A stretch of DNA of 39,784 nucleotides from Planctomycetota bacterium. Lineage in GTDB: Bacteria > Planctomycetota > Planctomycetia > Gemmatales > Gemmataceae. Under the pieces are notes generated by a model, which did no database searches, was not told where the DNA came from, and was given only the letters and a program-made list of their open reading frames with translations. Made by a program: the position numbers and the translations under genes. Below, one piece after another: positions 337 through 23,249 of the stretch. Positions within the stretch are counted from its first letter, which is position 1; each line of letters starts with the position of its first letter. The DNA is taken from contig JAIOPV010000194.1 in NCBI GenBank assembly GCA_021413735.1, positions 1 through 39,784 on the forward strand, given 5' to 3'.

Positions 337-2229
337 TCAGAAGCTGTTCGGCGTCATGCCACCGGCTCGCTGACGAGCTGTGTAACCGAAGTACCAGTTC
401 AGACGAACGCCGATCTGGTAGTCGAAGGTTCGAGCGGTCTGACCCAGAAGCGGTGCTGCTGCTGCAACCGCCAGAGTCGTGTTCTGGCCAATTCGACTCG
501 TGAAGCCAGCCGTGATGTTGAACTCGTTGTAGGTGGTCACATCACCGATCAGGAAGTTGTTCGCCTGCAACAGCGTTCCCTTGCTGATGTCGCCCGCGTA
601 GTGCAGTTCGAGGAACGGAGCCACACCACGAATGCGACCGGTTTGCGACTGATAGATCCAGTAACCGAGCTGGGCATCGACCGTCATCAGCGAAGGCGAG
701 GTCAGGCTTCCGATGTTCGGGCCGGTGCCGAAGATCGTCGGATTCACCTGCACGCCGTTGCCGCCAGTGTCGAAAGTGAACCCGTACCACGCCTGGACGA
801 AGAGCTTGTCGTTCGGCGTGTAAATCGCAGCCAAGAACGGAGCCAGTTGCACTGACTTGTTGTTGATGTGAATCAACTGATTCCCAGCGCCGTCGCCAAC
901 GGCGATGTCGTCTGCGGTGGGCAGCGAGATACCCAAACCACCGGAGACGTTCATCACGCTGCCCTTGTAGAACAGCGCCTTACCGAGCAACCGGACGTTC
1001 CCGAATTCGGTGCCCAACTGCTCGCCGTTGAGTGCCGAGTTGCTGCTCAATGTGCTCGCGAATGGAACCCGCACTTCAAACGACATGCGGCCCTGGAGCA
1101 ACGTCTTTTCAAACCCGAACTGGTACCGGTTCACCGGCAACCCACCCGTCCCCAGCGGAACGTTGTTGAAGTAGTCGTAGGTGAAGATGACACGGTCACG
1201 CGGGAACGGGCTGTTGTCTTCCGACACCTTGAGCAAGCCCACCACGCCACCGGCACCAGGCGTCGGCACCGAGTAGCGAATGTTCGTTGCTTGCGAGGTC
1301 GAGACGGTATCGCTGATCGTGGATGTGTAGACGATCTGGTTCCCGTTGAACACGGCCGTGACTGGCCCGAATGTAATCGAGTTGAGCGTGGCCTGCGGGT
1401 TCGCGGCCTTCTCGGTGGCCGCTGCGAGTGCGAACCCAGGCGTGCCAGGCGCGAACCGCGTCGAGAGTTCGTTCACGATGCGTGCAGAGTTCGGGGAGTT
1501 GTTGATCGGCACACCAACGGCCACGACCTGCTCGTGAATCGGCGAACCGTTCAGGATGAACGGAACCGTTTGCGTGAAGCCCGAAACACCGATGACCGCA
1601 GGGGCAGGGGTCTGGATCGTTAGTTGCCCCGGAAGCGGAGGGATCGGGGGAGTCGGGACCGCCGTGACCGATCCGATTCGTCCGGTCAGGATGCCCGGCA
1701 TCGTCCTGCTAACCACACCTGGCAGCGAGATGATGCTGGCTTTCGCGCCGAACAAATCCCCGAACATATTCGGCGAGTTCGTCTGCGCTGCATCCGTGCC
1801 GCCGCGGTCCGCCTGGAACGACGTGTTGTTGTTTGCCCCGGCTCCGGCTCCAGGCATCGCTGGATTTGGATTCGGATTTGGATTGGGGTTCGGGTTCGGA
1901 TTGGGGTTCGCATACGGATACGGATACGGATACGGGCTCGGCTGTGGTGGACACGGGAAGTACGGGTTCGGACGGCCCCACTGTGAGGGTGCGGCGAACC
2001 GAGGCGGGTTGGCACCCGCTTGCATAAACTCTCGGCCACTGGGAACATTGACGACGGGCACGGCAGCTTCGTTCCCAGCGGCGGGGGCGACCGCGATGGG
2101 TGGTGCCATGTCGCCAGCGGGGGCGACCGCTGGCACTGGTGTGGGCATCGGTTCAGCAGCGCTGACAAGGGGTTGGGCAACCCCTAACCCGAACGTTGTG
2201 GCGATCCAGACTTTCCAGGTCCGCTTCAT
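337..2229 (-). CDS. Secreted Pro/Asn-repeat protein with probable outer-membrane beta-barrel
   Basis: Protein of 630 residues from ATG at 2229. This start has GGGAGGGA a few bases upstream and puts a normal signal peptide first (MKRTWKVWIATTFGLG, then small residues to VSAAEP). A longer frame with nine extra residues exists but lacks these signals. Residues about 30-140 are low complexity: Ala/Pro-rich, then PYPYPYPY, then a run of NP dipeptides, ending in AMPGAGAGANNN. The C-terminal half alternates polar and aromatic or hydrophobic residues, as in beta strands (QFGFEKTLLQGRMSFEVRVP, VRLLGKALFYKG, LFVQAWYGFTFDTGG, VRLNWYFGY), and resembles planctomycete transporter-like outer-membrane barrels. 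No specific family is recognised. It is probably exported and anchored in the outer membrane; the repeat may span the cell wall or act as a linker. Confidence 0.75.
   Translation of the reverse strand: MKRTWKVWIATTFGLGVAQPLVSAAEPMPTPVPAVAPAGDMAPPIAVAPAAGNEAAVPVVNVPSGREFMQAGANPPRFAAPSQWGRPNPYFPCPPQPSPYPYPYPYANPNPNPNPNPNPNPNPAMPGAGAGANNNTSFQADRGGTDAAQTNSPNMFGDLFGAKASIISLPGVVSRTMPGILTGRIGSVTAVPTPPIPPLPGQLTIQTPAPAVIGVSGFTQTVPFILNGSPIHEQVVAVGVPINNSPNSARIVNELSTRFAPGTPGFALAAATEKAANPQATLNSITFGPVTAVFNGNQIVYTSTISDTVSTSQATNIRYSVPTPGAGGVVGLLKVSEDNSPFPRDRVIFTYDYFNNVPLGTGGLPVNRYQFGFEKTLLQGRMSFEVRVPFASTLSSNSALNGEQLGTEFGNVRLLGKALFYKGSVMNVSGGLGISLPTADDIAVGDGAGNQLIHINNKSVQLAPFLAAIYTPNDKLFVQAWYGFTFDTGGNGVQVNPTIFGTGPNIGSLTSPSLMTVDAQLGYWIYQSQTGRIRGVAPFLELHYAGDISKGTLLQANNFLIGDVTTYNEFNITAGFTSRIGQNTTLAVAAAAPLLGQTARTFDYQIGVRLNWYFGYTARQRAGGMTPNSF
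1858..1935. repeat. Degenerate hexamer tandem repeat inside the outer-membrane protein gene
   Basis: On the plus strand the units are variants of GGATTC/GGGTTC/GGATTG (to about 1908), then four near-identical CATACG/GATACG units (about 1908-1935). On the coding strand these give the Asn-Pro run and the Tyr-Pro run. Unit length is six, so changes in copy number would keep the reading frame. Confidence 0.7.
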
Positions 2230-2841
2230 CGGGAATCCCTCCCTGTTTACCGACACTGCCGTCCTTGGCGTGTCGGTTTGATCTATTCACATTCGTTATC
2301 GTGCCGCATTGCTGTTAGATTCAGCAAAACTCCCAAAGCCCCACGGTCCGGCTCGTCCGACTTGGCGGGTTGTTCCGGTGGAGGGGGTACGATAAGAATT
2401 CCGGGACGTTTCTCATTGGTTCCGGGCGATATGCACACCCATCCCCGGAACCATGTCACCTGTCCGGAAGAATTAGTATTAGAATATTTCTCGCCAGGCT
2501 ATCTGTCGCACATCCCATTCGTGCCAAAGATGTTATGGAGATGAGTGACAAACATGATGAACTTGCGGATCGGTTTTCACCACTCCGGAACCAAACGCAA
2601 CCTGTCCGGAAGCACGGGGCGATTCGTGCCGCTGTTGTTACAAATGGCACGAACGCGGAATGCGATCATGAGGCGATCTTGGACGTGATTCGGTATCCCG
2701 ATGCGAAAGTGGTGAAGGCTAGGGGGAAGTGAACGAGGGTTACTCGTTGAACCCGTCTGGCGTGAGTCGATGGGTATGCGGAGTTGTTGGAAACGCGGTG
2801 GCTGCAACTGGCAACGCAGTGAACCCCGCGCTTGGCCAAAC
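2230..2841. other. Intergenic stretch with no convincing gene
   Basis: About 600 bases upstream of the outer-membrane protein gene. It should hold that gene's promoter, but I see no clear -35/-10 pair. A short plus-strand frame at 2541-2732 (starts MSDKHDELADRFSPLRN, 63 codons, GGAG directly before ATG) cannot be supported further. The phrase ACCTGTCCGGAAG occurs twice (about 2458 and 2600), perhaps a small repeat or binding site. Confidence 0.4.
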
Positions 2842-3030: not shown

Positions 3031-3277
3031 GATCTGCCCTTTCCCTGGCATGGGTCTCGGCGCTCGGTCAACAATCATGGGCTGTAATGCGGTGCGATAC
3101 CGTCGGGTGTCCGCGTCTTCAAGGTGAACCGTGTCCGGATCACTCTGAAGATCTGCATGATGTGGTAGGCGGGTGACACGGTTCTTTCGTGATCCACCGT
3201 CGCTGGTAACGCTCTTGGAACACATCTTGCCCAATGTTACAATCGTTGGAACTTCACGTCCTTCGTCGGGGTTGGTC

Positions 3278-6200
3278 ATGTTCCCGAAACATCAAGCCGT
3301 CTGGTGTGTCGCGGTCGCAAGCTGCTTGTTCGCAAGCACACCCGCTTCTGCTCAGCAGGTCACACGGCTCGCCAACGACGAACCCGAAATCCGTTTCCGC
3401 GCCGACGGGCGTGCCGGCGTGTGCGATGTCCTCGCGTTCACGGCCGACGGTGCCGCTCTCCTCGCTGTCGGCGAAGATAAGGTGATCCATCGCTGGTCGG
3501 TCGCACCCGACAAACTGCGACCCGCACGGCCCCTGTACTGGAACACCTTCCGCGAACAGCGAGGCGCGATCTACGCCCTCGCATTCTCCGCCGACCGCGA
3601 GAACCCTCTGGTCGCCATCGCTGGCAACGGGAAACTTAACGCCGACGTCGCGATCTTCAATCTGCGTTCCGGGGAGCTCCTCGGTGCGGTTTCCGCGCTG
3701 GCAGATAACCCCGGCGAATATGTTCGAGCTGGCGGAGTTGTGTGGTCGTTGGCGTTTCACCCAACCGGGAAAGAACTGGCTATCGGCGACACGTTCGGCA
3801 ACGTGTGGGTTTCTCCTCTCATTGATGGAAAGCCAGTCACAGCGAAAACGACGCGGGTTGTTGGAGGAACGGCGGAAGCCACATACGGACGGCGTGTCGT
3901 GTGGGTCGGTTACCTTCCCGATGGCAAACTTGCTTACGCGAAACGGGACGGAGGCGTGTACGCCGTTGGGAAACTGGAGCCGCTGTTCCGCTGGGGTGGC
4001 GAGGTCGAGTATGTGGTCGGGAGTGCGGATGGTCGTCGGCTTGCGGCACAGCAGGCGAAAGCCAACGCTGGCGAAGGTTCGGTTGTGAAAGTTCGCACGC
4101 TTCCCGACGGCACCGGCGAGCGAATCGTTCACTTCCCGAATACGCACTATCCCGCCCGGATCGCTCTTGATGCAACCGGAAATCGCGTCGCGGTCGGACT
4201 GCTTGAAGCCAAACCCAATGAGCGGGGCGAACCGCTGTTGAAGCCGTTCGTGGTCGAACTCCCCGGCGAAGTCAAAATCTACGACCTCCACGCTGAGACG
4301 CCGAAACTCGTCGCGTCTCTCCCGGTCGATCACCGACCAGACGCGATGGCGTTCCACCCAGATGGCAAACGATTCGCCACGGCCGATTCGCTCGATCACG
4401 GAACCACGCTGTGGGCCATCGAGAACAACACGCTCCGCAAACTCGACCGCGACGTGAATGCTGGTCGGTCGCTGTGGGCTGTCGGCATGACCGCAGACGG
4501 CAAACACCTCTGTTTCAAGGATAAACGCAACCCAGACCCGCAGGATCCGAATGAGCGAGCCGACCCGAAAGCACCGTGGATCACGTTCGATCTCGACACC
4601 GAACCGCGGGGCTGGGGCGTGGCTCAGACGCCAGTGCCGCCCGTGAAGACACTCGGCGGATGGTCAGTTGCATTCATCGGCAAGGACCAGATTCGCAACG
4701 AGTACCAGTGGTACGCTGTCTACGAGGGACAGCACTTCGCACTGCCGATGAACGCGCTCCAAGATGATCGGCCGCGTTGCTTCACCTTCCTGCCCGCTGG
4801 CGAAGGTGCGAAGCCGGGAACCGTTCGCCTCGCGGTTGGTCATGCCTGGGGTGCGAGCGTCTTCGATCTCGTTCCCGTATCGGGGGTCAAACGGATTCGC
4901 CGACTCAACGGACACGCCGGGAATGTCACGGCCATCGCGCCGGCGTTTGGTGGCAAGGGACTCGTGACGTGCGGGCGGGATCAGACCATCGCGATCTGGA
5001 ATCTCGCTGACTTCGCATCGGAACCGTTGCTCGGGGCGTCCTTCGCAGTGGATGGCAATAAGGTTGTGGTGAAGGCGGTCGATCTGGGAAGCCCGGCGCA
5101 GGAAGCAGGGTTATCCGTTGGCGACGAGGTGTTGAGCTATCACCGTGGCGACAGCACCACCGCGGTGCCAAAGGAGCGATGGCTCACGGAGTTTCGCAAC
5201 ATCGAGCCGATGCGCGAGATGCTGTGGTCTGTGAAGCCGATCAACAGTGCCCCTGGTGACACGAAACAATACGGCTCGAAGACTTCACTTCTGCATCGCC
5301 CGGCAGCGAGATTCTTGCCGCTCGCGAACAACGAATGGGTGCTCTACAGCTATCGTCAGTGCTACTACGACTGCTCCGCCAACGGCGACAGCTACATCGA
5401 ATGGCTTGTCTCAAAAGACCGGGCTAACAAACGGCCCGATGTCTTCGGCGTCGAGCAGTTCCGCAAGTTCCTGAACAAGCCCGAGAAGCTCACGGACGTC
5501 ATTACCAAACTGATTCGCGAGCCCGCCAAGCCGTTGCTTCCCGATTTGTTCCCACCGACGGTCACGCTCAAAACCGATCTGCAAAAAGTCGCTGCGGGGC
5601 AGGACGTGAAAGTCACCGTGACGGTCGTTCCCGGAGCGCGACAAGACGGCAAAGTGAACGCCGTCACGCGAGTTGAGTTGTGGCTGAACGGGCACCATCG
5701 CGTCGGTCTGGATACGCTTCAGGGCAAGAAATTCGAGGTCGGCGTTCCGTTCGATGTGACGTTCACCGTGCAGAACAAATCGCTGATGTCGGGCGACAAC
5801 AAGCTCAACGCCGTTGGGGTCGGGTTCGACGATCCGGGCAACGGTTCGGGCTCGGGTGTCAGCGCTCCGGTGCGATTCGTGGCTGCCGTGGATCGACCCA
5901 CGCGGCGGCTGTTCGTGATTGCGGCGGGCATTCGCTTCTACGAGAAAGCAACCGATGCGCTCGGCCGCGACATGGACTTGCCCGGAGCCAGTCGCGACGC
6001 GGCCCGCATGATGCAGATTTGGTCGCAGGTTCAGCAATTCGGCGGGTACGCCACGGAAGGGGCACCGAAAGCCGTGCTGCTGCTGAACGAGAACGTCACC
6101 AAGGAACGGTTGCTCAAGGAGATCAAACAGGTCGGGGAAATCGCTCGCCCAGATGATGTGCTTGTGTTATGCCTCGCGGGGCACGGCGCGATGTTCTCGG

Positions 6201-6799
6201 CAGAAGCGAAAGCCGCCGAGGGAACGCCCAAAGACTGGTACTACATCATTCCACGAACGGACGAGAAATCGGTTCTCTCGGCGGCCGATTACCGCAACCC
6301 CGACAAGTTCCGCAACGCCTTCATCCGCGACTCGGAACTCGCCGAAGTGCTCGTGAATCTCGACTGTCAACCGCTGGTCTTCCTCGACTGCTGTCACTCG
6401 GGAGCTGCGAGCGCGAAGGTCGGCGAGCGCGCCTTGACCCGCAACAGCACGCGCGGCTTCTCGCAGAATGGATTTGGCCCCGTGGTTGTGGCCGCGTGTG
6501 CGCCGCACCAGCTTTCGTGGGAAACCGGCGACACCGTGCAGACTCGCGGTGGCCTGTTCAGCCGGAGCGTCGCATTAACGCTGGGGGAACAGTTTTCAGA
6601 GGCCGACAAGAACAAAGACGGGGCACTCAGCGTTCAGGAGTTCTTCCTGGCTGTGCAAGTCGGGACCGAGAAGGGGGCTTCCGCGATTGTGGACGATCTC
6701 GGAAAGCCCGTGCAGCAGACGCCGCAGATCAGTCCGTTACCCGACCGACTGAGCGATCTCGTGCTCAGCAAGCAAGCTGTTGTGAAGCCGAAAAAGTGA
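3278..6799 (+). CDS. Secreted WD40-PDZ-caspase (peptidase C14) protein with EF-hand
   Basis: Protein of 1173 residues from ATG at 3278. An in-frame start at 3173 is rejected because 3278 places a clean signal peptide first (cleavage after ASA at about residue 25). Residues about 40-580 form beta-propeller-like WD40 repeats, the last reading HAGNVTAIAPAF...GRDQTIAIWNL. Residues about 585-670 are PDZ-like (VDLGSPAQEAGLSVGDEVLS). From about 880 there is a caspase-like domain: RRLFVIAAGIRFY, then LAGHGAM with His969 and FLDCCHSG with Cys1039 as the expected catalytic pair. Residues 1109-1121 match an EF-hand calcium loop (DKNKDGALSVQEF). It is probably a calcium-responsive cysteine peptidase outside the cytoplasm, with the propeller as sensor or substrate binder. 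It is first in a same-strand series with the genes at 6921 and 8569. Confidence 0.85.
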   Translation: MFPKHQAVWCVAVASCLFASTPASAQQVTRLANDEPEIRFRADGRAGVCDVLAFTADGAALLAVGEDKVIHRWSVAPDKLRPARPLYWNTFREQRGAIYALAFSADRENPLVAIAGNGKLNADVAIFNLRSGELLGAVSALADNPGEYVRAGGVVWSLAFHPTGKELAIGDTFGNVWVSPLIDGKPVTAKTTRVVGGTAEATYGRRVVWVGYLPDGKLAYAKRDGGVYAVGKLEPLFRWGGEVEYVVGSADGRRLAAQQAKANAGEGSVVKVRTLPDGTGERIVHFPNTHYPARIALDATGNRVAVGLLEAKPNERGEPLLKPFVVELPGEVKIYDLHAETPKLVASLPVDHRPDAMAFHPDGKRFATADSLDHGTTLWAIENNTLRKLDRDVNAGRSLWAVGMTADGKHLCFKDKRNPDPQDPNERADPKAPWITFDLDTEPRGWGVAQTPVPPVKTLGGWSVAFIGKDQIRNEYQWYAVYEGQHFALPMNALQDDRPRCFTFLPAGEGAKPGTVRLAVGHAWGASVFDLVPVSGVKRIRRLNGHAGNVTAIAPAFGGKGLVTCGRDQTIAIWNLADFASEPLLGASFAVDGNKVVVKAVDLGSPAQEAGLSVGDEVLSYHRGDSTTAVPKERWLTEFRNIEPMREMLWSVKPINSAPGDTKQYGSKTSLLHRPAARFLPLANNEWVLYSYRQCYYDCSANGDSYIEWLVSKDRANKRPDVFGVEQFRKFLNKPEKLTDVITKLIREPAKPLLPDLFPPTVTLKTDLQKVAAGQDVKVTVTVVPGARQDGKVNAVTRVELWLNGHHRVGLDTLQGKKFEVGVPFDVTFTVQNKSLMSGDNKLNAVGVGFDDPGNGSGSGVSAPVRFVAAVDRPTRRLFVIAAGIRFYEKATDALGRDMDLPGASRDAARMMQIWSQVQQFGGYATEGAPKAVLLLNENVTKERLLKEIKQVGEIARPDDVLVLCLAGHGAMFSAEAKAAEGTPKDWYYIIPRTDEKSVLSAADYRNPDKFRNAFIRDSELAEVLVNLDCQPLVFLDCCHSGAASAKVGERALTRNSTRGFSQNGFGPVVVAACAPHQLSWETGDTVQTRGGLFSRSVALTLGEQFSEADKNKDGALSVQEFFLAVQVGTEKGASAIVDDLGKPVQQTPQISPLPDRLSDLVLSKQAVVKPKK

Positions 6800-6920
6800 C
6801 TCGAAACAACGAAATGTTGTCCGCTTTTCAGGCGGAGTTTCGCATTACCAATGTAAACTGAACGATGATTGGTGGGTTCGCATCGCCACCAACCCACATA
6901 ATCCAGACGAGGAGCAGATC

Positions 6921-8477
6921 ATGTTGAAGGCCGCTTTCCGGCGTACCCACCTCGGGGTGTTCGCCCTCAGTTTCGCTGCCGTGTTCGCAGGAGCCTCCCC
7001 CGCTCGCGCCGATCAAATCGACCGCGTCATGGTCGAGGATGCGGGAGCGATTGCGAAGGCTGTCCACGGCTTGAAGGCGAAGAATGTGGCGGTGCTGCGG
7101 TTCCAGGTGAAAATGGGCGATAGCCTGCCGACCTTCAAGTGTGGCACGGAAGGTGCGGAGATGGTACATCGGCTTGAGAATCTGCTCGTGCTGAGTCTCG
7201 ATCCGAAAAGCCCGGACTACACGATCCTGACGAAAGCCGGTGAAGCGGCTTCAGCGCTGGCCAAGGCTGCCAAAACGCCGATCGACTGGACCACCTCCGA
7301 CGGCCGCAAGAAGCTCTTCGAGGTGAAACTGCCGGTGTGTTGGGACGACAAGGACACTCGGAGCCCTGATGCATTCGTGACAGGCACCGTGATCGTGTCG
7401 AAGAACTTGCAGGAAGTGAAGATCGAACTGACGGCGTTCGCGAAGTCCGACCCGGCGAGCCTGAAGAAGCTCGGCACGCTGGCCGGAGCAATGGCCAACA
7501 AGGGGATCTGGACAGACCGTTCGATGCTTGCGAGCCTTGGCCAGACCTACACGACGAGCCGCGATCTGAAGACCACCGGAAAGGCTCGGGACTTCTTCGC
7601 AGCAGATGAAGCCGCAGCCGCCGATGCCGCCGCTCGCGACAACATGGCGATGGCACCAACGGCTGACCCCACGAGCGGCCTTGCGAACTTGGCCGGTCCG
7701 GTTTCGTTCAAGATCAAACTCGATGGCGAGGTGGCTCCGATTCAGTCCGACGGCGGCAACAGTGGCAACTTCAAGGTCTCTGGCAAGCTGCCCAACAGTG
7801 GTGTTGCCGGTCAGAAGGTGACGTTCACGCTGGTGAACAACCACACGGAGAAACTCGCCGTGCTGCTGTGTCTGAATGGTCGGAACACGATCGCTCTCGA
7901 TGGCGAGACCCTCGACAGCCTCGATAAACCACGCTCGAAGTTCCGGATGTATGTGCTTGAACCGAAAGTGGTCTACGAGATCAAGGGCTTCCTGAAAGAC
8001 GACAAAGGCACGATCGGCGAAATTGTGGTGTCCCCGGATGACGAGTCTTCTGCATTGTACGATCAGATGAACTCCGAAACGCGTGGCAAGATTCAGATGT
8101 TCGTGTATGGCCCGGCTCCTGTCCGAACGCCGGACATCACCGGGGGAACCGCAGCCGAGACGACCCCAGTCGGCGACGATCCGGAAACCGCGTTCGACAA
8201 CGCCTTTGCAGCGAGCGGACTGGCGACGGCGGAGAAGAATCTTGGGAAGTCGCGGAGCCTTGCCGCCGCTCAGAAGAGCCTGGAAGCCCGGACGAAACTT
8301 ACGGTGGCGAACGGAAAGATCAGCCCCGATCCGAAACTGGCTCGTGGACGCAGCCGAGGGCTGTTCATCGAGTCGAAGGAACCGCCAAAGGTGGCCGGTG
8401 GTGCCGTTCAGGTTGTTCAGTTCAATTATGACGAGCAACCGCTGGATAGTGTGGTAATTAATTACTATGCCAAGTAA
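6921..8477 (+). CDS. Secreted protein of unknown function between two caspase-like genes
   Basis: Protein of 518 residues; ATG at 6921 follows GAGGAGCAGATC, a strong ribosome site. A signal peptide ends at ARA (about residue 30). The first 120 residues (KNVAVLRFQVKMGD, EMVHRLENLLVLSL) recall the strand-helix opening of CsgG-like or penicillin-binding-protein-activator proteins; that likeness is only an impression. Residues about 225-250 are Ala/Asp-rich. The middle (VSFKIKLDGEVAPIQ, GQKVTFTLVNNHTEKLAVLLCLNG) looks like an immunoglobulin-like beta domain. The C-terminus (VQVVQFNYDEQPLDSVVINYY) is beta-rich. It lies 121 bases after the large caspase gene and 91 before the second one, so it is probably co-transcribed and may be a partner, regulator or substrate. 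Confidence 0.75.
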   Translation: MLKAAFRRTHLGVFALSFAAVFAGASPARADQIDRVMVEDAGAIAKAVHGLKAKNVAVLRFQVKMGDSLPTFKCGTEGAEMVHRLENLLVLSLDPKSPDYTILTKAGEAASALAKAAKTPIDWTTSDGRKKLFEVKLPVCWDDKDTRSPDAFVTGTVIVSKNLQEVKIELTAFAKSDPASLKKLGTLAGAMANKGIWTDRSMLASLGQTYTTSRDLKTTGKARDFFAADEAAAADAAARDNMAMAPTADPTSGLANLAGPVSFKIKLDGEVAPIQSDGGNSGNFKVSGKLPNSGVAGQKVTFTLVNNHTEKLAVLLCLNGRNTIALDGETLDSLDKPRSKFRMYVLEPKVVYEIKGFLKDDKGTIGEIVVSPDDESSALYDQMNSETRGKIQMFVYGPAPVRTPDITGGTAAETTPVGDDPETAFDNAFAASGLATAEKNLGKSRSLAAAQKSLEARTKLTVANGKISPDPKLARGRSRGLFIESKEPPKVAGGAVQVVQFNYDEQPLDSVVINYYAK

Positions 8478-8568
8478 CCGCCAATCAGTTCGGTAATCCG
8501 TTCGATCCCACGCGGCTGAGAAACTCCAGCCGTTCGGGTCGTTTCGGATGAAGACATAAAGGCAATCC

Positions 8569-9735
8569 ATGTGCCTCGCATCCACAATCCGGCGAACGTT
8601 CCTCCCGACCCTGCTCGGGCTTCTCTTCGTCGGCTCTGCGGGCGCACAGGAAGCGAAGACGAAGGAAGTCGCTCATCTCAAGGTGCTGCTCGTCGCTGAC
8701 ACGTCGGACCCAGTACTGGCCAAGGGGGTTCACCGCGACACCAAGAACTTCACGAGCTTCCTGGCCAACAACATTCCGAAAGAGCGTTACGATCTGGTCG
8801 TGCTGACTGGCGAGTCAATCACGCCGGATCAGATACTCGCACATTACAAGAACCTCAAGGTCGGCCCCGACGACGGCTTGCTGTTCTACTACTCCGGTCA
8901 CGGCTCGATTCGACCGGGGAAGGGCCACACGCTCGAACTGCAGAAGGGGAAGAATCCGCTTACTCGCTCTGATGTCGTGGCTGCGATGACGGCCAAGAAG
9001 CCGCTTCTCGCGGTGCTTCTCACGGATTGTTGCAGCGACCGACTCGGGCTGACGGATATGAACTCGAAAGAGGGAACCCCGCACGCCGCGAACATTCCCA
9101 CGGCCCCGACCACGCTCGTCCGAAAGCTGTTCTTCCAGACTCAAGGGCTTGTGGACATCACTGCCGCGACCAACGATGTCGCGCTTGCAGACGACTTCCG
9201 GGGCGGCTACTTCACGAACGCGATCTGTCGCATCGCTGGCCAGAACAAAGACAAGGCGCTGAGTTGGAAGGAGTTCCACACGGCGGTTGCGAAGGAGACG
9301 GTTGCGATTCATCAGGACGCGATCAAGAAGGGCATCGCCCCGCAGTTGCGAAAAGGGCAGCAGTTCCAGGAACCCGCGCTCATCAATGTCCTGCTCACGG
9401 GCGCTGACGCACCGGCTCGCGTTGCTGCGGTCGTGAGTCTCGTGAACACGGCCGAGGCGGAACTGGAAGTCGAATACCGCTGGGATGCCTCGCAGCCGTG
9501 GCTCAAGAAGAAGATTCCCGCCAACGGGAAGGTGTCGATTGGCACATGGCTTCCCACGGCACTTGCGAAGTTACCCGACATGACGGTGAAGATCGACGGA
9601 CACGAACAAACGCTGACGCCGAATCGCTTCGACAAGGAAGGCACGCCGAAGTTTTCCGATGGCAAGGTCTACCGCCTCGGTGCGAAAAAGGATGACATCA
9701 AGGGGCGGTCTCGGGTGTTTGAACTCGACTCGTAA
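8569..9735 (+). CDS. Secreted caspase-like (peptidase C14) protein
   Basis: Protein of 388 residues with a signal peptide (cleavage after AGA, about residue 26). The caspase fold is visible: LKVLLVADTSDPVL as first strand, FLANNIPKERYDLVVLTGE, then LLFYYSGHGSI with His111 and LLTDCCSDR with Cys155 as the likely catalytic dyad. The usual His-Ser-Gly after the cysteine is replaced by Ser-Asp-Arg, so activity or specificity may differ. Residues about 225-238 (GQNKDKALSWKEF) look like a degenerate EF-hand loop at the same place as in the large caspase. Residues about 285-388 form a beta-rich domain of unknown role. Third gene of the module; AAGG precedes the ATG. Confidence 0.8.
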   Translation: MCLASTIRRTFLPTLLGLLFVGSAGAQEAKTKEVAHLKVLLVADTSDPVLAKGVHRDTKNFTSFLANNIPKERYDLVVLTGESITPDQILAHYKNLKVGPDDGLLFYYSGHGSIRPGKGHTLELQKGKNPLTRSDVVAAMTAKKPLLAVLLTDCCSDRLGLTDMNSKEGTPHAANIPTAPTTLVRKLFFQTQGLVDITAATNDVALADDFRGGYFTNAICRIAGQNKDKALSWKEFHTAVAKETVAIHQDAIKKGIAPQLRKGQQFQEPALINVLLTGADAPARVAAVVSLVNTAEAELEVEYRWDASQPWLKKKIPANGKVSIGTWLPTALAKLPDMTVKIDGHEQTLTPNRFDKEGTPKFSDGKVYRLGAKKDDIKGRSRVFELDS

Positions 9736-9759
9736 CATCCCACGAACAAATGTTTTTCG

Positions 9760-9782
9760 GGCCACGGGATTATCCCGTGGCC
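9760..9782. repeat. 10-bp inverted repeat with 3-base loop, CCACGGG type
   Basis: GGCCACGGGA at 9760-9769 pairs perfectly with 9773-9782. It lies 25 bases after the stop of the second caspase gene and is followed by TTGTTGTT, so it may end the module's transcript. The core matches the larger palindromes at 21741-21814. Confidence 0.75.
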
Positions 9783-10075
9783 TTGTTGTTCCAGAGCAGC
9801 CCGGCGAACGAAATAGAAACGAGCAGGTTGTGTCGCCAGTTGTCTCGGTGGCGGTGTTGATCCGCTTGTCCAGCTCAACTCCGCCAACCCTTGTTGGCTC
9901 GTGCCGTCGCCGGGTTCCGCGGTTTGAAGTTCGACAGCAACGCCCACGTTCGTCAGTGACGATTGGCTTCTTCCTCGAAGTAGCTGTTCATTTCACGCAT
10001 CACGCGATCCAGCATGTTGCTCGTCCTGGGGCCGCTGTGGTCGGACCGAAGCGAGCGGGTGTGCCGACGGCAGAA
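9783..10075. other. Intergenic stretch, nothing recognised
   Basis: Lies between the end of the caspase module and the end of the cyclophilin gene, which point toward each other. Frames here are only extensions of antisense reading over the cyclophilin gene. No RNA gene or repeat was seen. Confidence 0.5.
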
Positions 10076-18670: not shown

Positions 18671-21600
18671 ATGAAGTCATTGGTTATTGCGTTTGGTGTA
18701 TGTCTCCTCGCATTCGGCGTGATCGCTGCCCCGCCTGCCGAAACAACTCCAACCACCCCCGCGAAGATCGACTACAACCGCGACGTGCGGCCCGTCCTCG
18801 CGGATGCCTGCTTCTCGTGCCACGGCCCCGACGAAAAGACCCGCAAGGCGAAGCTGCGTCTCGACACCAAGGAAGGCATGTTCAGCGCGAGCACGGTGGT
18901 GCCCGGCAAGCCTGCTGCAAGCGAACTGATGACTCGCATTCAGGCACACGACGGCGAAGAACTGATGCCGCCCGCCAAGAGCGGCAAGAAGCTCACCGCA
19001 GCGCAGATCGCATTGTTGAAGGCATGGATCGAGCAGGGGGCGACGTGGTCGTCGCACTGGGCGTTCACGGCTCCGGTGCGACAGCCAATCCCCGATGTGG
19101 CAAAGCAACTTGCACGAAACCCGATCGACAACTTCGTGCTGGCCCGGCTGGCAAAAGAAGGACTGACGCTCTCGCCCGAGGCCGACAAGGCAACGCTCAT
19201 CCGTCGGCTGTCGCTCGATCTCACCGGACTGCCGCCAACGCCCGAGGAAGTGGCCGCGTTCCTGAAGGATGATTCGCCGGAAGCCTACGAGAAAGTCGTC
19301 GATCGCCTGCTGGCGTCGCCGCACTACGGCGAGCGCATGGCGATGACGTGGCTCGACGGTGCCCGCTACGCCGACAGCAACGGCTATCAGGCCGACTTCG
19401 AGCGGTTCATGTGGCGCTGGCGTGATTGGGTCATCGACGCCTTCAACACGAACATGCCCTACGATCAATTCACGATCGAGCAACTCGCAGGCGACATGCT
19501 GCCGAACGCGACCGTGAGCCAAAAGCTCGCGACGGGCTTCAACCGCAATCACCGAATCAACACCGAGGGCGGCATCATCGCCGAGGAATGGCGGATCGAA
19601 ACGGTCGTCGATCGCGTGGACACCACCGGTTCCGTGTGGCTCGGTCTGACGCTCGGCTGCTGCCGCTGCCACGATCACAAGTACGACCCGATCACGCAGA
19701 AGGAGTTCTACCAACTGTTCTCGTACTTCAACAACGTCCCGGAATCTGGGGCCGGACTTGAAGCACAGGGGAACACGCCGCCGACGGTTCGGGCACCGCG
19801 ACCGCAAGACGAGGCAAAGTTGAAGGAACTGAAGACCGCAATCGAGACGGCGACCGTCAAGGCGAAGGACGCAGAGAAGGAGCTGCTGCCAAAGTTGGCC
19901 GCCTGGGAGAAGACGGTTGACCTGAAGAAGCTCGGGGCAACGTGGGTATCGCCGAAACCAACCGAAGCGACCGCCGCGAAAGCCAAGCTGGAGGTACTGC
20001 CCGATTACTCCATTCACGCGACCGGCCCGAACGGCGACAGCGAAACGTACACCGTGACCGTGCCCACCGACGTGAAGGAACTTTCTGCGGTGCGGTTCGA
20101 GGTCTTCCCGGATGACAAACTCGCGGCCAAGGGGCCAGGGCGTTCACAGAACGGCAACTTCGTGCTGACCGATGTGCGGGTCGCCGTGGATGGCAAGCCA
20201 GTAAAGCTGACGTCGGCGACGGCGAGCTTCAATCAGGAGCATTACGCGGTATCGGCTGCGATCGACGCCGACCCCGTCACAGGTTGGGCGATTCACCCGA
20301 AAGTGGGGCAACCGCATGATGCCGTGTTCGCATTCGAGAAATCGCTGAAGCTCGACAACCCCGCAAAGGTGGCGGTCACGCTCGTGTTCGGGTCGCAGTT
20401 CGCGGGCCACCAGCCCGGCCGCTTCCGCGTGTCTGTGACCGATGCGAAGTCGCCGCACGAACGCGGTGTGCTTCCGGCTGGTGTCGCGGGTGCGCTCGCA
20501 ATTTCAGCCGAGAAGCGAACGCCACAGCAAGCTCAAGAACTGATGACGTATTTCCGTCAGCATCACGCGGGAGCTGCGACCGATGCCGACCGTGAACTGG
20601 CTGCTGCGACGAAGACGCTCGCCGACTTCGAGAAGACGTTCCCGACCGCGATGGTGATGGACGAGATGCCGAAGCCTCGCGATGCGTTCGTGCTGGTGCG
20701 TGGGCAGTACGACAAGAAGGGCGACAAGGTATCGGCATCAGTACCCGCCGCGTTGCCGGCGTTGCCGAAGGACGCACCGAACAATCGGCTTGGCCTCGCA
20801 AAGTGGATCGCTTCACCCGACAACCCGCTGACGGCTCGCGTCGCCGTGAATCGCTTCTGGGAGCAACTGTTCGGGGCGGGGTTGGTGCGATCGACAGAGA
20901 ACTTCGGCATTCAGGGCGAGCCGCCGACGCATCCCAAGCTACTCGACTGGCTCGCAACGGAATTCGTTCGCCTCAAGTGGGACATGAAGGCCACCCAGAA
21001 GACAATCGTGATGTCGGCCACCTACCGCCAGTCGTCGAAGATCACGCCGGAATTGCTCGCGAAGGATCCCGACAACCGCCTGCTCGCTCGCCAAACCCGC
21101 TTCCGTTTGCCGGCTGAGCTGGTTCGCGACAACGCCCTCGCTGCGAGCGGACTGCTCACGCGAGCTGTGGGCGGCCCGAGCGTGCGACCGTACATGCCGG
21201 CCGGCGTGTGGGATGAAACGAACTTCTACGGCAACCTGCGGAACTACAAGCACGATGTCGGCGACAACCTGTATCGCCGTAGCCTGTACACGATCTGGAA
21301 GCGAACGGCAGCGCCGCCGTCGATGTTGCTGTTCGACGCCCCCGGCCGCGAGGTGTGCAGCGTTCGCCGTGGTCGCACGAACACGCCATTGCAAGCGCTC
21401 GCGTTGATGAATGAGGTCACGTTCGTGGAGGCATCGCGGCTGCTGGCAACGAAGGCGATTAAGGAGGGTGGCAAGTCGCCGGAGGAACGCATCACGCATG
21501 CCTTTCGCCTCGCGATTTCACGCCCGCCAACCGATGCCGAGCTGAAGGTGCTGGCCGCTGGCGTGGCGAAGCGAACGGAGGCGTTCAAGGCGAACCCGGA

Positions 21601-21730
21601 CAGCGCCAAGAAGCTGCTGACGCTTGGCGACACGAAACCCGACGCGACGATTGAGCCAGCCGAACTCGCGGCATACACCGTGACCGCGAGCGTGATTCTG
21701 AATTTAGATGAGACGATCACGAGAGAATGA
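18671..21730 (+). CDS. DUF1549/DUF1553 protein with planctomycete cytochrome c domain
   Basis: Protein of 1019 residues with signal peptide (cleavage near VIAA-PP, residue 20). Residues about 33-130 are the planctomycete cytochrome c domain with haem motif CFSCH (Cys47, Cys50, His51) and [12 protein letters not shown]. Residues about 148-355 are DUF1549 ([35 protein letters not shown], and [12 protein letters not shown], which is a second CXXCH). A middle beta-rich part follows (about 400-620), then DUF1553 from about 715 ([45 protein letters not shown]). The role is not settled; the family is greatly expanded in planctomycetes and nearly always followed by DUF1501, as here. Probably exported and redox-linked. 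Confidence 0.93.
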
Positions 21731-21740
21731 CGTGCGGTTT

Positions 21741-21814
21741 GCGAGCCACGGGGTTTATCCCCGTGGTCTTACTTCACCTGAACCAACACCACGGGGGTAA
21801 ACCCCGTGGCTCGC
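21741..21814. repeat. 27-bp inverted repeat of hairpins, CCACGGGG type
   Basis: Bases 21741-21767 and 21788-21814 are complementary except at one position. Each arm is itself a hairpin: CCACGGGG, a short loop, CCCCGTGG. It lies between the DUF1553 and DUF1501 genes, within the presumed transcript. The arm core matches the element at 9760-9782. Confidence 0.85.
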
Positions 21815-21827
21815 CAGCGAGATCCAT

Positions 21828-23249
21828 ATGTTCCCGTCTCCCATGCTGCGGCTTCAGGATCAACTGAACCGCCGTACCTTCCTCGCCAACAGCGCCGCGG
21901 GCCTCGGTCTTGCTGCACTCGGCTCACTGACGGCTAACGCGGCTCCATCGGTAACGGCGAAGGCCAAGCGCGTCATCTACCTGTTCCAGTCGGGTGCGCC
22001 GTCGCAGATGGATTTGTTTGACCCGAAGCCCGGACTCGAAAAGGTTCGCGGCGAAGACCTGCCCGCATCCATCCGCATGGGTCAGCGACTCACCGGCATG
22101 ACCGCGGGGCAAGCGAAGTTCCCGGTCGCGCCGTCGATCTTCAAGTTCGCGAAGCACGGCCAGAGCGGTCAGGATTTCTGCGAACTGCTGCCGAACACCG
22201 CGAAGTGGGCTGACCGCATGGCCATCGTGCGGTCGATGCAGACAAATGCGATCAACCACGACCCGGCGATCACGTTCTTCCAGACGGGTCAGGAAATCGC
22301 CGGTCGCCCGAGCATCGGGTCGTGGCTCGCCTACGGCCTTGGCAGCGAGAACAAGGACTTGCCCGCGTACATCGTCATGACGTCGCAAGGCTCAGGACGC
22401 CCGGCCGACCAACCGCTCTATGATCGCCTGTGGGGCAGCGGTTTCCTTCCGACGCGGCATCAGGGCGTGAAGCTCCGCAACCAGGGCGACCCCGTGCTGT
22501 ATCTGTCCGACCCGCCGGGCATCGACCGCAGCACCCGTCGTGAGATGCTCGACGAACTCGGCGAACTCAACAAGCTGAAGCTCGGCACATCCGGCGACCC
22601 CGAGATTTCGACACGAATCTCGCAGTACGAGATGGCGTTTCGGATGCAGGCGTCTGTGCCGGAACTGACCGATCTCTCGAAGGAAACCGCGAAGACGCTC
22701 GAAGCCTACGGCCCGGATGTGAAGCGGCCTGGCAGCTATGCGTACAACTGTTTGCTGGCTCGTCGGCTGTAGGAACGCGGCGTGCTGTTCGTGCAACTCT
22801 TCCACATGGGCTGGGACCATCACGGCGGCTTGCCGGCGGCGTTACGGGGCCAGTGTCGCGACACCGATCAGCCGACGGCAGCGTTGCTGAGGGATCTCGA
22901 GGCACGCGGCTTGCTCGACGAAACGCTGATCGTGTGGGGCGGTGAGTTCGGGCGCACGGTGTACAGTCAAGGAGCGTTGAGCGCGAAGGATTACGGCCGC
23001 GACCACCATCCGAAGTGCTTCACCGTGTGGCTCGCGGGCGGCGGCATCAAAGGCGGCGTCAGCCACGGCGAAACCGACGACTACTGTTACAACGTGACGA
23101 AGGACCCCGTTCAGGTTCGTGACCTGCACGCGACGATTTTGCATTTGCTGGGGATCGAGCACGAGAAGTTGACGTACAAGTTCCAGGGCCTCGATGCGAA
23201 GCTGACGGGCGTGGAGCACGCCCACGTGGTGAGCGAAATCGTGGCGTGA
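21828..23249 (+). pseudogene. DUF1501 gene interrupted by an in-frame TAG codon
   Basis: The frame from ATG 21828 is clearly DUF1501: it has a Tat-like start (LNRRTFLANSAAGLGLAALG), then VIYLFQSGAPSQMDLFDPKP and QMDL-type blocks. It stops at TAG 22770-22772 (codon 315), directly after YAYNCLLARRL. The next codons in the same frame continue the family ([19 protein letters not shown], later [11 protein letters not shown] and [12 protein letters not shown]) to the true stop at 23249, so a full protein would have 473 residues. No insertion or frameshift is present, only the one stop. Both halves carry residues of the alkaline-phosphatase-like fold, so neither alone should work. It could be a recent pseudogene, readthrough, or a sequence error. 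A GTG at 22782 could restart, but without a ribosome site. Confidence 0.85.

Follow-up and report, generated by a model that had tools for sequence, protein, structure and literature searches.

A recurring gene pair of a signal-peptide-bearing caspase-type peptidase and a new protein family in Gemmata-like planctomycetes

We analyzed three consecutive genes on the plus strand of a 39,784 nucleotide (nt) stretch of DNA (the window) from a Planctomycetota bacterium of the family Gemmataceae (contig JAIOPV010000194.1 of assembly GCA_021413735.1). They encode a large WD40-PDZ-caspase-EF-hand protein (BIG), a protein of a new family (MID) and a small caspase-fold peptidase (SMALL). Judged by gene order in related genomes, BIG and MID, in some cases with SMALL, form a recurring peptidase-partner module. 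We see an even chance that MID is a dedicated envelope partner, possibly the substrate, of an exported orthocaspase in an envelope proteolysis module of Gemmata-like planctomycetes. An earlier note, made from the letters of this DNA alone, had described three same-strand genes with signal peptides, and this is borne out by the open reading frames (ORFs; 3278-6799, 6921-8477 and 8569-9735) and by inspection of the three N-termini by eye. A crude signal-peptide rule was also positive for BIG, MID and SMALL but adds little, since it is too unspecific (173 of 338 called genes positive, module genes included).

Conservation of the gene order around MID

The MID protein of the window gave no match in Pfam, NCBIfam or PADLOC, in agreement with the earlier note, which had called the middle protein unknown. 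MID was found in 28 of the 198 genomes searched, its own included, 22 of which belong to the family of the window and six lie outside this family within the same class. Within the family it is present in at least 22 of 95 genomes, and in a phylum-wide sample in at least five of 392 genomes at an expectation value (E) of 1e-10, own genome included. The genome search counts for MID and BIG are lower bounds, with four (phylum), up to 17 (family) and seven (BIG) candidates scored per genome. A nine-residue pattern scan of named genomes gave 24 loci, 23 of them planctomycete; the 24th, in Merdibacter, is a 38-residue PDZ match.

For the neighbourhood analysis, genes were called and own profiles were built for 36 MID clusters, i.e., the window and L037-L071. 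Three genes absent from the gene calls (BIG of L085, MID of L056 and the second MID of L051) were added by another route. BIG is located directly upstream of MID on the same strand in 17 of the 36 clusters (window, L037, L038, L040, L042, L043, L045, L047, L049, L051, L052, L057, L060, L062, L063, L065 and L070), and in two clusters SMALL directly adjoins MID without BIG (L044 and L048). A caspase-fold gene is therefore the direct neighbour of MID in 19 of 36 clusters, or in 18 of 35 if the window is set aside. These counts agree with the partner role proposed for the middle protein by the earlier note, and a check for whether the middle gene rarely neighbours caspase genes elsewhere leaves the module standing. 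The rate of BIG-MID adjacency can hardly be attributed to chance, because a genome of thousands of genes contains only a few Peptidase_C14 genes (81 matches over the 28 MID genomes, an undercount since this search missed several BIG genes).

In 16 pairs, BIG and MID are separated by 19 to 274 nt; the single apparent overlap is probably a miscalled start. In the window, gaps of 121 nt (BIG-MID) and 91 nt (MID-SMALL) are found. Compared with the congener L037, amino acid identity is 79% for BIG, 78% for MID and 76% for SMALL, and the ratio of nonsynonymous to synonymous substitutions (dN/dS) is about 0.1 for each of the three genes, with dS near saturation. This short conserved spacing and the order of the genes appear to be better evidence for a single transcript than the promoter and terminator scan. 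On the plus strand, terminator-like sites were detected in neither the BIG-MID nor the MID-SMALL gap, with site numbers at chance level (8 in the region vs. 8.4 expected). For the hairpin just 3' of SMALL, position alone therefore speaks. Ahead of BIG, a promoter-like site is located at 3215-3243, and such sites are as numerous in shuffled sequence. The BIG-MID gap also contains an inverted repeat (TTGGTGG...CCACCAA, about 6868-6892); it lacks a T run and may be a regulatory hairpin.

SMALL adjoins MID in only five of the 36 clusters, and the full order BIG-MID-SMALL was found in three (the window, the congener metagenome-assembled genome L037 and Limnoglobus roseus, L040). The bracket of two caspases around the middle gene, seen by the earlier note, thus does not hold as a general arrangement. 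The calcium-gated relay of two caspases was rejected as the core of the module: the caspase-MID-caspase order is rare, SMALL is optional and the SMALL of the window fails the EF-hand pattern. From gene order, the conserved core is taken to be BIG-MID, or TPR-CHAT-MID in another clade. Two MID copies per cluster are present in five of the 36 clusters (L042, L044, L045, L048 and L051).

In five clusters (L046, L056, L059, L061 and L064) MID adjoins a TPR-CHAT gene, with a Pfam CHAT match in all five. It is split into two genes or frames in L046 and L056, and in L059, L061 and L064 the TPR-CHAT proteins next to MID are large (1360-1381 amino acids). Like the caspases, CHAT proteins are cysteine peptidases of clan CD. 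A Peptidase_C14 search of two CHAT-type genomes (G139 and G168) gave no match, with the search having missed several BIG genes elsewhere. In a tree of 39 MIDs, built without the second MID of L051 and without L068 (open frame; likewise absent from alignment A1), all CHAT-linked MIDs fall into one nine-row clade (support 100/99), together with three CYT-linked rows (CYT, a cytochrome c-type protein, see below) and L050. The split between caspase-linked and CHAT-linked MIDs needs one change on this tree if the other rows are left uncounted, and the CHAT label against all other rows needs three. Partner labels are clustered overall, with 14 changes compared to a shuffled mean of 18.7 (as low in 1 of 200). 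One peptidase family thus seems to have replaced the other beside MID, with the neighbour remaining a clan CD peptidase. Of all the evidence, this argues most strongly that MID and the peptidases are functionally linked.

The MID protein, its peptidases and a candidate bond

The AlphaFold model of MID (predicted local distance difference test, pLDDT, 79; predicted template modelling score, pTM, 0.55) shows an LpoB/TolB-N-like domain behind the signal peptide and an immunoglobulin (Ig)-like region at the C-terminus. In VIA-align, residues 31-198 of this pTM 0.55 model match LpoB (4q6l) with Z 9.2 and 2.9 Å over 130 residues, and the matches ranked next, with GNA1162, FlgT, TolB and PelC among them, mostly belong to the same fold family. 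Foldseek gave LpoB with E 2.5e-3 and probability 1.00. The known members of this fold are mostly periplasmic or outer-membrane adaptors; LpoB, TolB and PelC are envelope adaptors. Among 38 MID rows searched against Pfam, no family of the LpoB/TolB-N type was found, only stray matches (best E 0.0089, to an unrelated family), and the MID profile gave just two weak, unrelated matches among solved structures. A comparison of MID and CYT by hhalign for a shared DUF4384-like domain gave one match with E 0.0033 but probability 9.8. No lipobox is present in the MID of the window, where residues 1-31 contain no Cys. In L060 (2246-3609) MID adjoins BIG and is broken across two frames, through either assembly error or decay.

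Arg479 is the sole fully basic column among the 421 columns of the MID alignment. It is Arg in 29 and Lys in seven of the 36 usable rows, window included, and is followed by Gly in 28. Two of the 38 rows were excluded, as the frame of L060 ends early and the contig of L043 stops before the site. In the model the residue belongs to a coil of 12 residues (470-481, pLDDT about 53), close to the end of this coil and ahead of the last strands. The MID linker has another Arg-Gly (432-433) in 24 of 36 rows, but it is missing from the window. The Asp two residues before the catalytic Cys, which we take to be part of an acidic S1 pocket, is invariant in BIG (Asp1037, 17 of 17 rows) and SMALL (Asp153, six of six, window included). 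The bond after Arg479 is a candidate of the kind expected for caspase-like peptidases with a D-x-C motif and a predicted Arg/Lys specificity, and C14B enzymes are described to accept Arg and Lys (part of PMC4357240). The claim that MID is a substrate thereby gains one candidate bond.

BIG was modelled with pLDDT 82.8 and pTM 0.85. Its start codon (ATG at 3278) lies within a longer frame opening at 3173. The WD40 match is over the Pfam cut-off (E 7.8e-15), and the top Foldseek matches include tandem-propeller proteins, e.g., 2ymu and Pwp2; this result is dominated by propellers and uninformative on the peptidase part. PDZ_6 was matched in 14 of 17 BIG rows at E 0.01. Peptidase_C14 (PF00656) reached 38.2 bits in BIG compared to the curated cut-off of 21.4 (E 1.7e-9) and 36.7 bits in SMALL (E 4.7e-9), and at E 0.01 it reaches 12 of 17 BIG rows; among the SMALL rows it reaches six of six. 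The catalytic residues named by the earlier note, His969/Cys1039 in BIG and His111/Cys155 in SMALL, are at the correct positions and invariant throughout these rows. In comparison with solved structures, the caspase part of BIG matched calbindin EF-hands and two amidases, and no caspase, while SMALL matched MALT1 paracaspases best (E 9e-4 over about 60 positions). A strict EF loop pattern is passed by 12 and failed by five of the 17 BIG rows, and is passed by two of the six SMALL rows. The lone EF loop at the end of the BIG caspase fold is suggestive of calcium control, no more. The propeller may be the sensor that the earlier note proposed. The caspase-only gene of L046, which is not beside MID, was excluded from alignment A3.

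All 17 BIG rows have Arg1059, soon after a low-confidence loop behind the catalytic Cys, and this residue could be a self-processing site. A second near-full-length BIG is present in the genome of the window (L084, G000 C179, 4588-8055) without MID; the two downstream genes inspected look unrelated.

Table 1. Features of the module and its surroundings in the window.
Feature	Position	Strand	Basis
Divergent gene, outer-membrane-barrel-like (by eye)	337..2256	-	relatives found next to BIG in other genomes
BIG, WD40-PDZ-caspase-EF-hand protein, 1173 aa including signal peptide	3278..6799	+	Pfam, AlphaFold model
BIG signal peptide, residues 1-25	3278..3352	+	by eye; pLDDT <50 for residues 1-34
BIG tandem WD40 beta-propellers, residues ~37-575	3386..5002	+	Pfam WD40, DSSP strands, Foldseek
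BIG PDZ-like domain, residues ~583-655	5024..5242	+	PDZ_2 E 1.8e-4, under Pfam cut-off
BIG Peptidase_C14 (caspase) domain, residues ~884-1107	5927..6598	+	Pfam
BIG catalytic His969	6182..6184	+	invariant 17/17 BIG rows
BIG catalytic Cys1039, in D-C-C-H-S-G	6392..6394	+	invariant 17/17; Asp1037 invariant too
BIG EF-hand loop DKNKDGALSVQE	6605..6640	+	Pfam EF-hand_1 E 0.001, under cut-off
MID, putative partner protein of a new family, 518 aa including signal peptide	6921..8477	+	ORF; no credible Pfam match
MID signal peptide, residues 1-30	6921..7010	+	by eye and alignment
MID LpoB/TolB-N-like domain, residues 31-198	7011..7514	+	VIA-align, Foldseek on model
MID Ig-like region, residues 259-518	7695..8474	+	model; VIA-align Z ~5, common fold
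MID Arg479, loop residue, candidate cleavage site	8355..8357	+	K/R in 36/36 usable rows
SMALL, caspase-fold peptidase, 388 aa including signal peptide	8569..9735	+	Pfam Peptidase_C14
SMALL catalytic His111	8899..8901	+	invariant 6/6 SMALL rows
SMALL catalytic Cys155, in D-C-C-S	9031..9033	+	invariant 6/6; Asp153 invariant
Terminator-like hairpin, 11-pair stem, just 3' of SMALL	9759..9783	+	terminator scan

Wider neighbourhood and relation to known systems

Near-full-length BIG (>900 bits) was found in at least 40 places in the 95 family genomes, 17 of them with MID. In the 23 MID-less loci, a search of all ORFs with the MID profile gave none at E 1; in five of these loci (L073, L077, L086, L090 and L093) the contig stops within about 530 nt downstream of BIG. 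CYT is the next gene after BIG in nine of the 23 (L074, L076, L078-L083 and L087), and in seven of these nine it is followed by a barrel-like gene. Its CxxCH motif is invariant in 23 of 23 rows. CYT in the place of MID suggests that the caspase here has a redox or haem protein as partner. One CYT relative, in L055, matches DUF4384 with E 0.0024, which does not reach the Pfam cut-off. CYT also occurs beside MID, or one small ORF away, in L053, L054, L055, L066, L068 and L069. Other MID clusters are L039 and L041 with kinase neighbours, L050 with a TPR gene at the contig edge, L058, L067 and L071.

The barrel-like family has no Pfam match, and its label is a reading by eye. A divergent member adjoins BIG in the window, L037, L038, L040, L051 and L092, and a member is near BIG in L095; a hidden Markov model of the family detected it in 16 of the 60 sequences scanned (window and 59 loci). 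A Sigma70_ECF (extracytoplasmic function) family is located directly upstream of BIG in four loci, and in a fifth a small ORF lies between the two, with the Pfam label resting on one scanned member (L052). By gene order, BIG belongs to a wider neighbourhood in which MID is one major partner. Elsewhere in the window (18671-22772), a PSCyt1-PSCyt2-PSD1 gene is followed by a DUF1501 gene, an ordinary find, as these two are a common planctomycete couple.

BIG and SMALL resemble the bacterial metacaspases or orthocaspases (C14B) in their Peptidase_C14 fold, His/Cys dyad and D-x-C motif. WD40 forms, likely signal-peptide forms and planctomycete members are already known from a survey of prokaryotic caspase homologs from 2012 (PMC3501461, in part). 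However, BIG unites tandem propellers, PDZ and an EF loop in a single protein and has a partner that recurs downstream of it. In its operon section, the same survey describes multi-metacaspase operons in four other groups only and names no MID-like neighbour (PMC3501461, this section). The EACC1-caspase conflict system likewise pairs a caspase with a constant partner, but EACC1 is a single-transmembrane domain (part of PMC7159879), whereas MID, by its model, is a two-domain protein with signal peptide. Membership of the two peptidases in the EACC1-associated caspases was rejected (NCBIfam caspase_w_EACC1, NF047832; 32.5 and 23.2 bits compared to a cut-off of 140). Against the anti-phage defence models of PADLOC, BIG (E 7.4e-6) and SMALL (E 0.0047) matched the generic caspase model only.

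In Craspase, the clan CD peptidase TPR-CHAT also has a dedicated protein partner, its substrate Csx30, and TPR-CHAT lies beside MID in five loci. In contrast to Craspase, signal peptides are present here and the site in MID is conserved, while Craspase sites are non-conserved (part of PMC11106740). A further parallel is found in the type V pili, where the exported Arg-specific clan CD gingipain processes the envelope proteins FimA and Mfa1 for polymerisation (part of PMC5954841). The MID of the window differs by the missing lipobox, by a candidate site near the C-terminus instead of the N-terminus and by having no known polymer. With the fold family of LpoB, TolB-N, GNA1162, FlgT and PelC, residues 31-198 of MID share the predicted fold; its identity to LpoB is about 10%, it matches no Pfam family of this kind, and it lacks a lipobox and carries an additional Ig-like region.

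No description of the BIG-MID pair was found in the open-access full-text literature of PubMed Central, judged by titles and the beginnings of abstracts and with preprints outside this scope, and a term search of the main text of the Tuwongella immobilis proteome paper (PMC8567305) gave no mention of caspases. As far as these searches go, the peptidase-partner module with signal peptides is new in combination, with MID placed by its modelled fold.

Proposed mechanism and alternative explanations

In the reading we favour, the propellers and PDZ domain of BIG would dock the protein to an envelope ligand, and the single EF loop may tune it with calcium. The peptidase would act on MID, and the bond behind Arg479, in the flexible loop ahead of the last strands, is the likeliest site. 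This cut would release a C-terminal piece of 39 residues and switch or mature MID, in parallel to the Arg-specific gingipains, likewise clan CD, which mature fimbrial subunits. SMALL would be a second peptidase that the module can do without, and its specificity probably falls into the class of BIG.

Several observations weigh against this reading. No peptidase gene is adjacent in 12 of the 36 MID clusters, some of them at contig ends, and 23 of the 40 near-full-length BIG places are without MID. Those five of the 17 BIG rows that Pfam Peptidase_C14 does not reach were assigned by own profiles and the kept His/Cys dyad, and Foldseek gives no MID match at E 0.001. As to the bond itself, columns with at least 95% Lys or Arg are also found in BIG (six), SMALL (five), CYT (three) and once more in MID, and because such columns are not rare in the neighbouring families, Arg479 may be structural. 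One MID row has Lys-Pro at this site, a poor bond for cutting. Arg479 is conserved as well in MIDs that have CHAT, or no peptidase gene, next to them, and the TPR-CHATs of Craspase cut non-conserved sites with a P1 residue other than Arg or Lys (part of PMC11106740).

MID could instead be a receptor, scaffold or inhibitor, with the LpoB-like domain holding BIG at the envelope and the basic loop braking the S1 pocket in a product-like manner. The same neighbourhood data speak for this, as do the conserved basic loop residue and the fold match to the envelope adaptors LpoB, TolB and PelC. Double MID copies in five of the 36 clusters are somewhat harder to reconcile with a single brake than with a subunit or substrate, and we consider a receptor, scaffold or inhibitor role possible, if on the unlikely side. 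The top fold match also allows MID to be seen as analogous to an LpoB-type activator of peptidoglycan synthesis that is regulated by a caspase-like or CHAT peptidase. For comparison, HetF, a CHAT protein in the divisome of Anabaena, interacts with the septal synthase FtsI (part of PMC8406250). However, the fold is common to TolB, GNA1162, FlgT and PelC and shows no function, and no cell-wall gene is among the annotated recurrent neighbour families, many neighbours having lacked annotation. Such a control of the cell wall appears improbable.

The sigma factor family at five BIG loci and the position of CYT after BIG in nine of the 23 MID-less loci would suit a general exported cassette for stress or death, in which caspase, MID, CYT and the barrel-like protein are co-regulated, partly via ECF sigma factors, and do not interact. 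The persistence of MID next to peptidases, even where CHAT has taken the place of the caspase, argues for a specific link instead, and we regard this cassette as quite unlikely. A further, doubtful proposal takes the substrate role of MID to an envelope assembly line, in which MID, with its two copies in several clusters, would be an inactive structural subunit until an orthocaspase or CHAT cut at the basic residue frees its C-terminal strands for assembly.

To our knowledge, natural substrates have been described for few bacterial caspases. The MID family, which also occurs in the strain Limnoglobus roseus PX52, whose genome is complete, is linked by neighbourhood to caspase-type and CHAT peptidases with signal peptides and offers one predicted bond. 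If the bond after Arg479 is cut, MID would be a substrate for an exported orthocaspase with a role beyond cell death. If the assembly line holds true, the logic of gingipains and fimbriae would have been reinvented with caspase-type enzymes, and bacterial caspases would have a function other than death in the planctomycete envelope.

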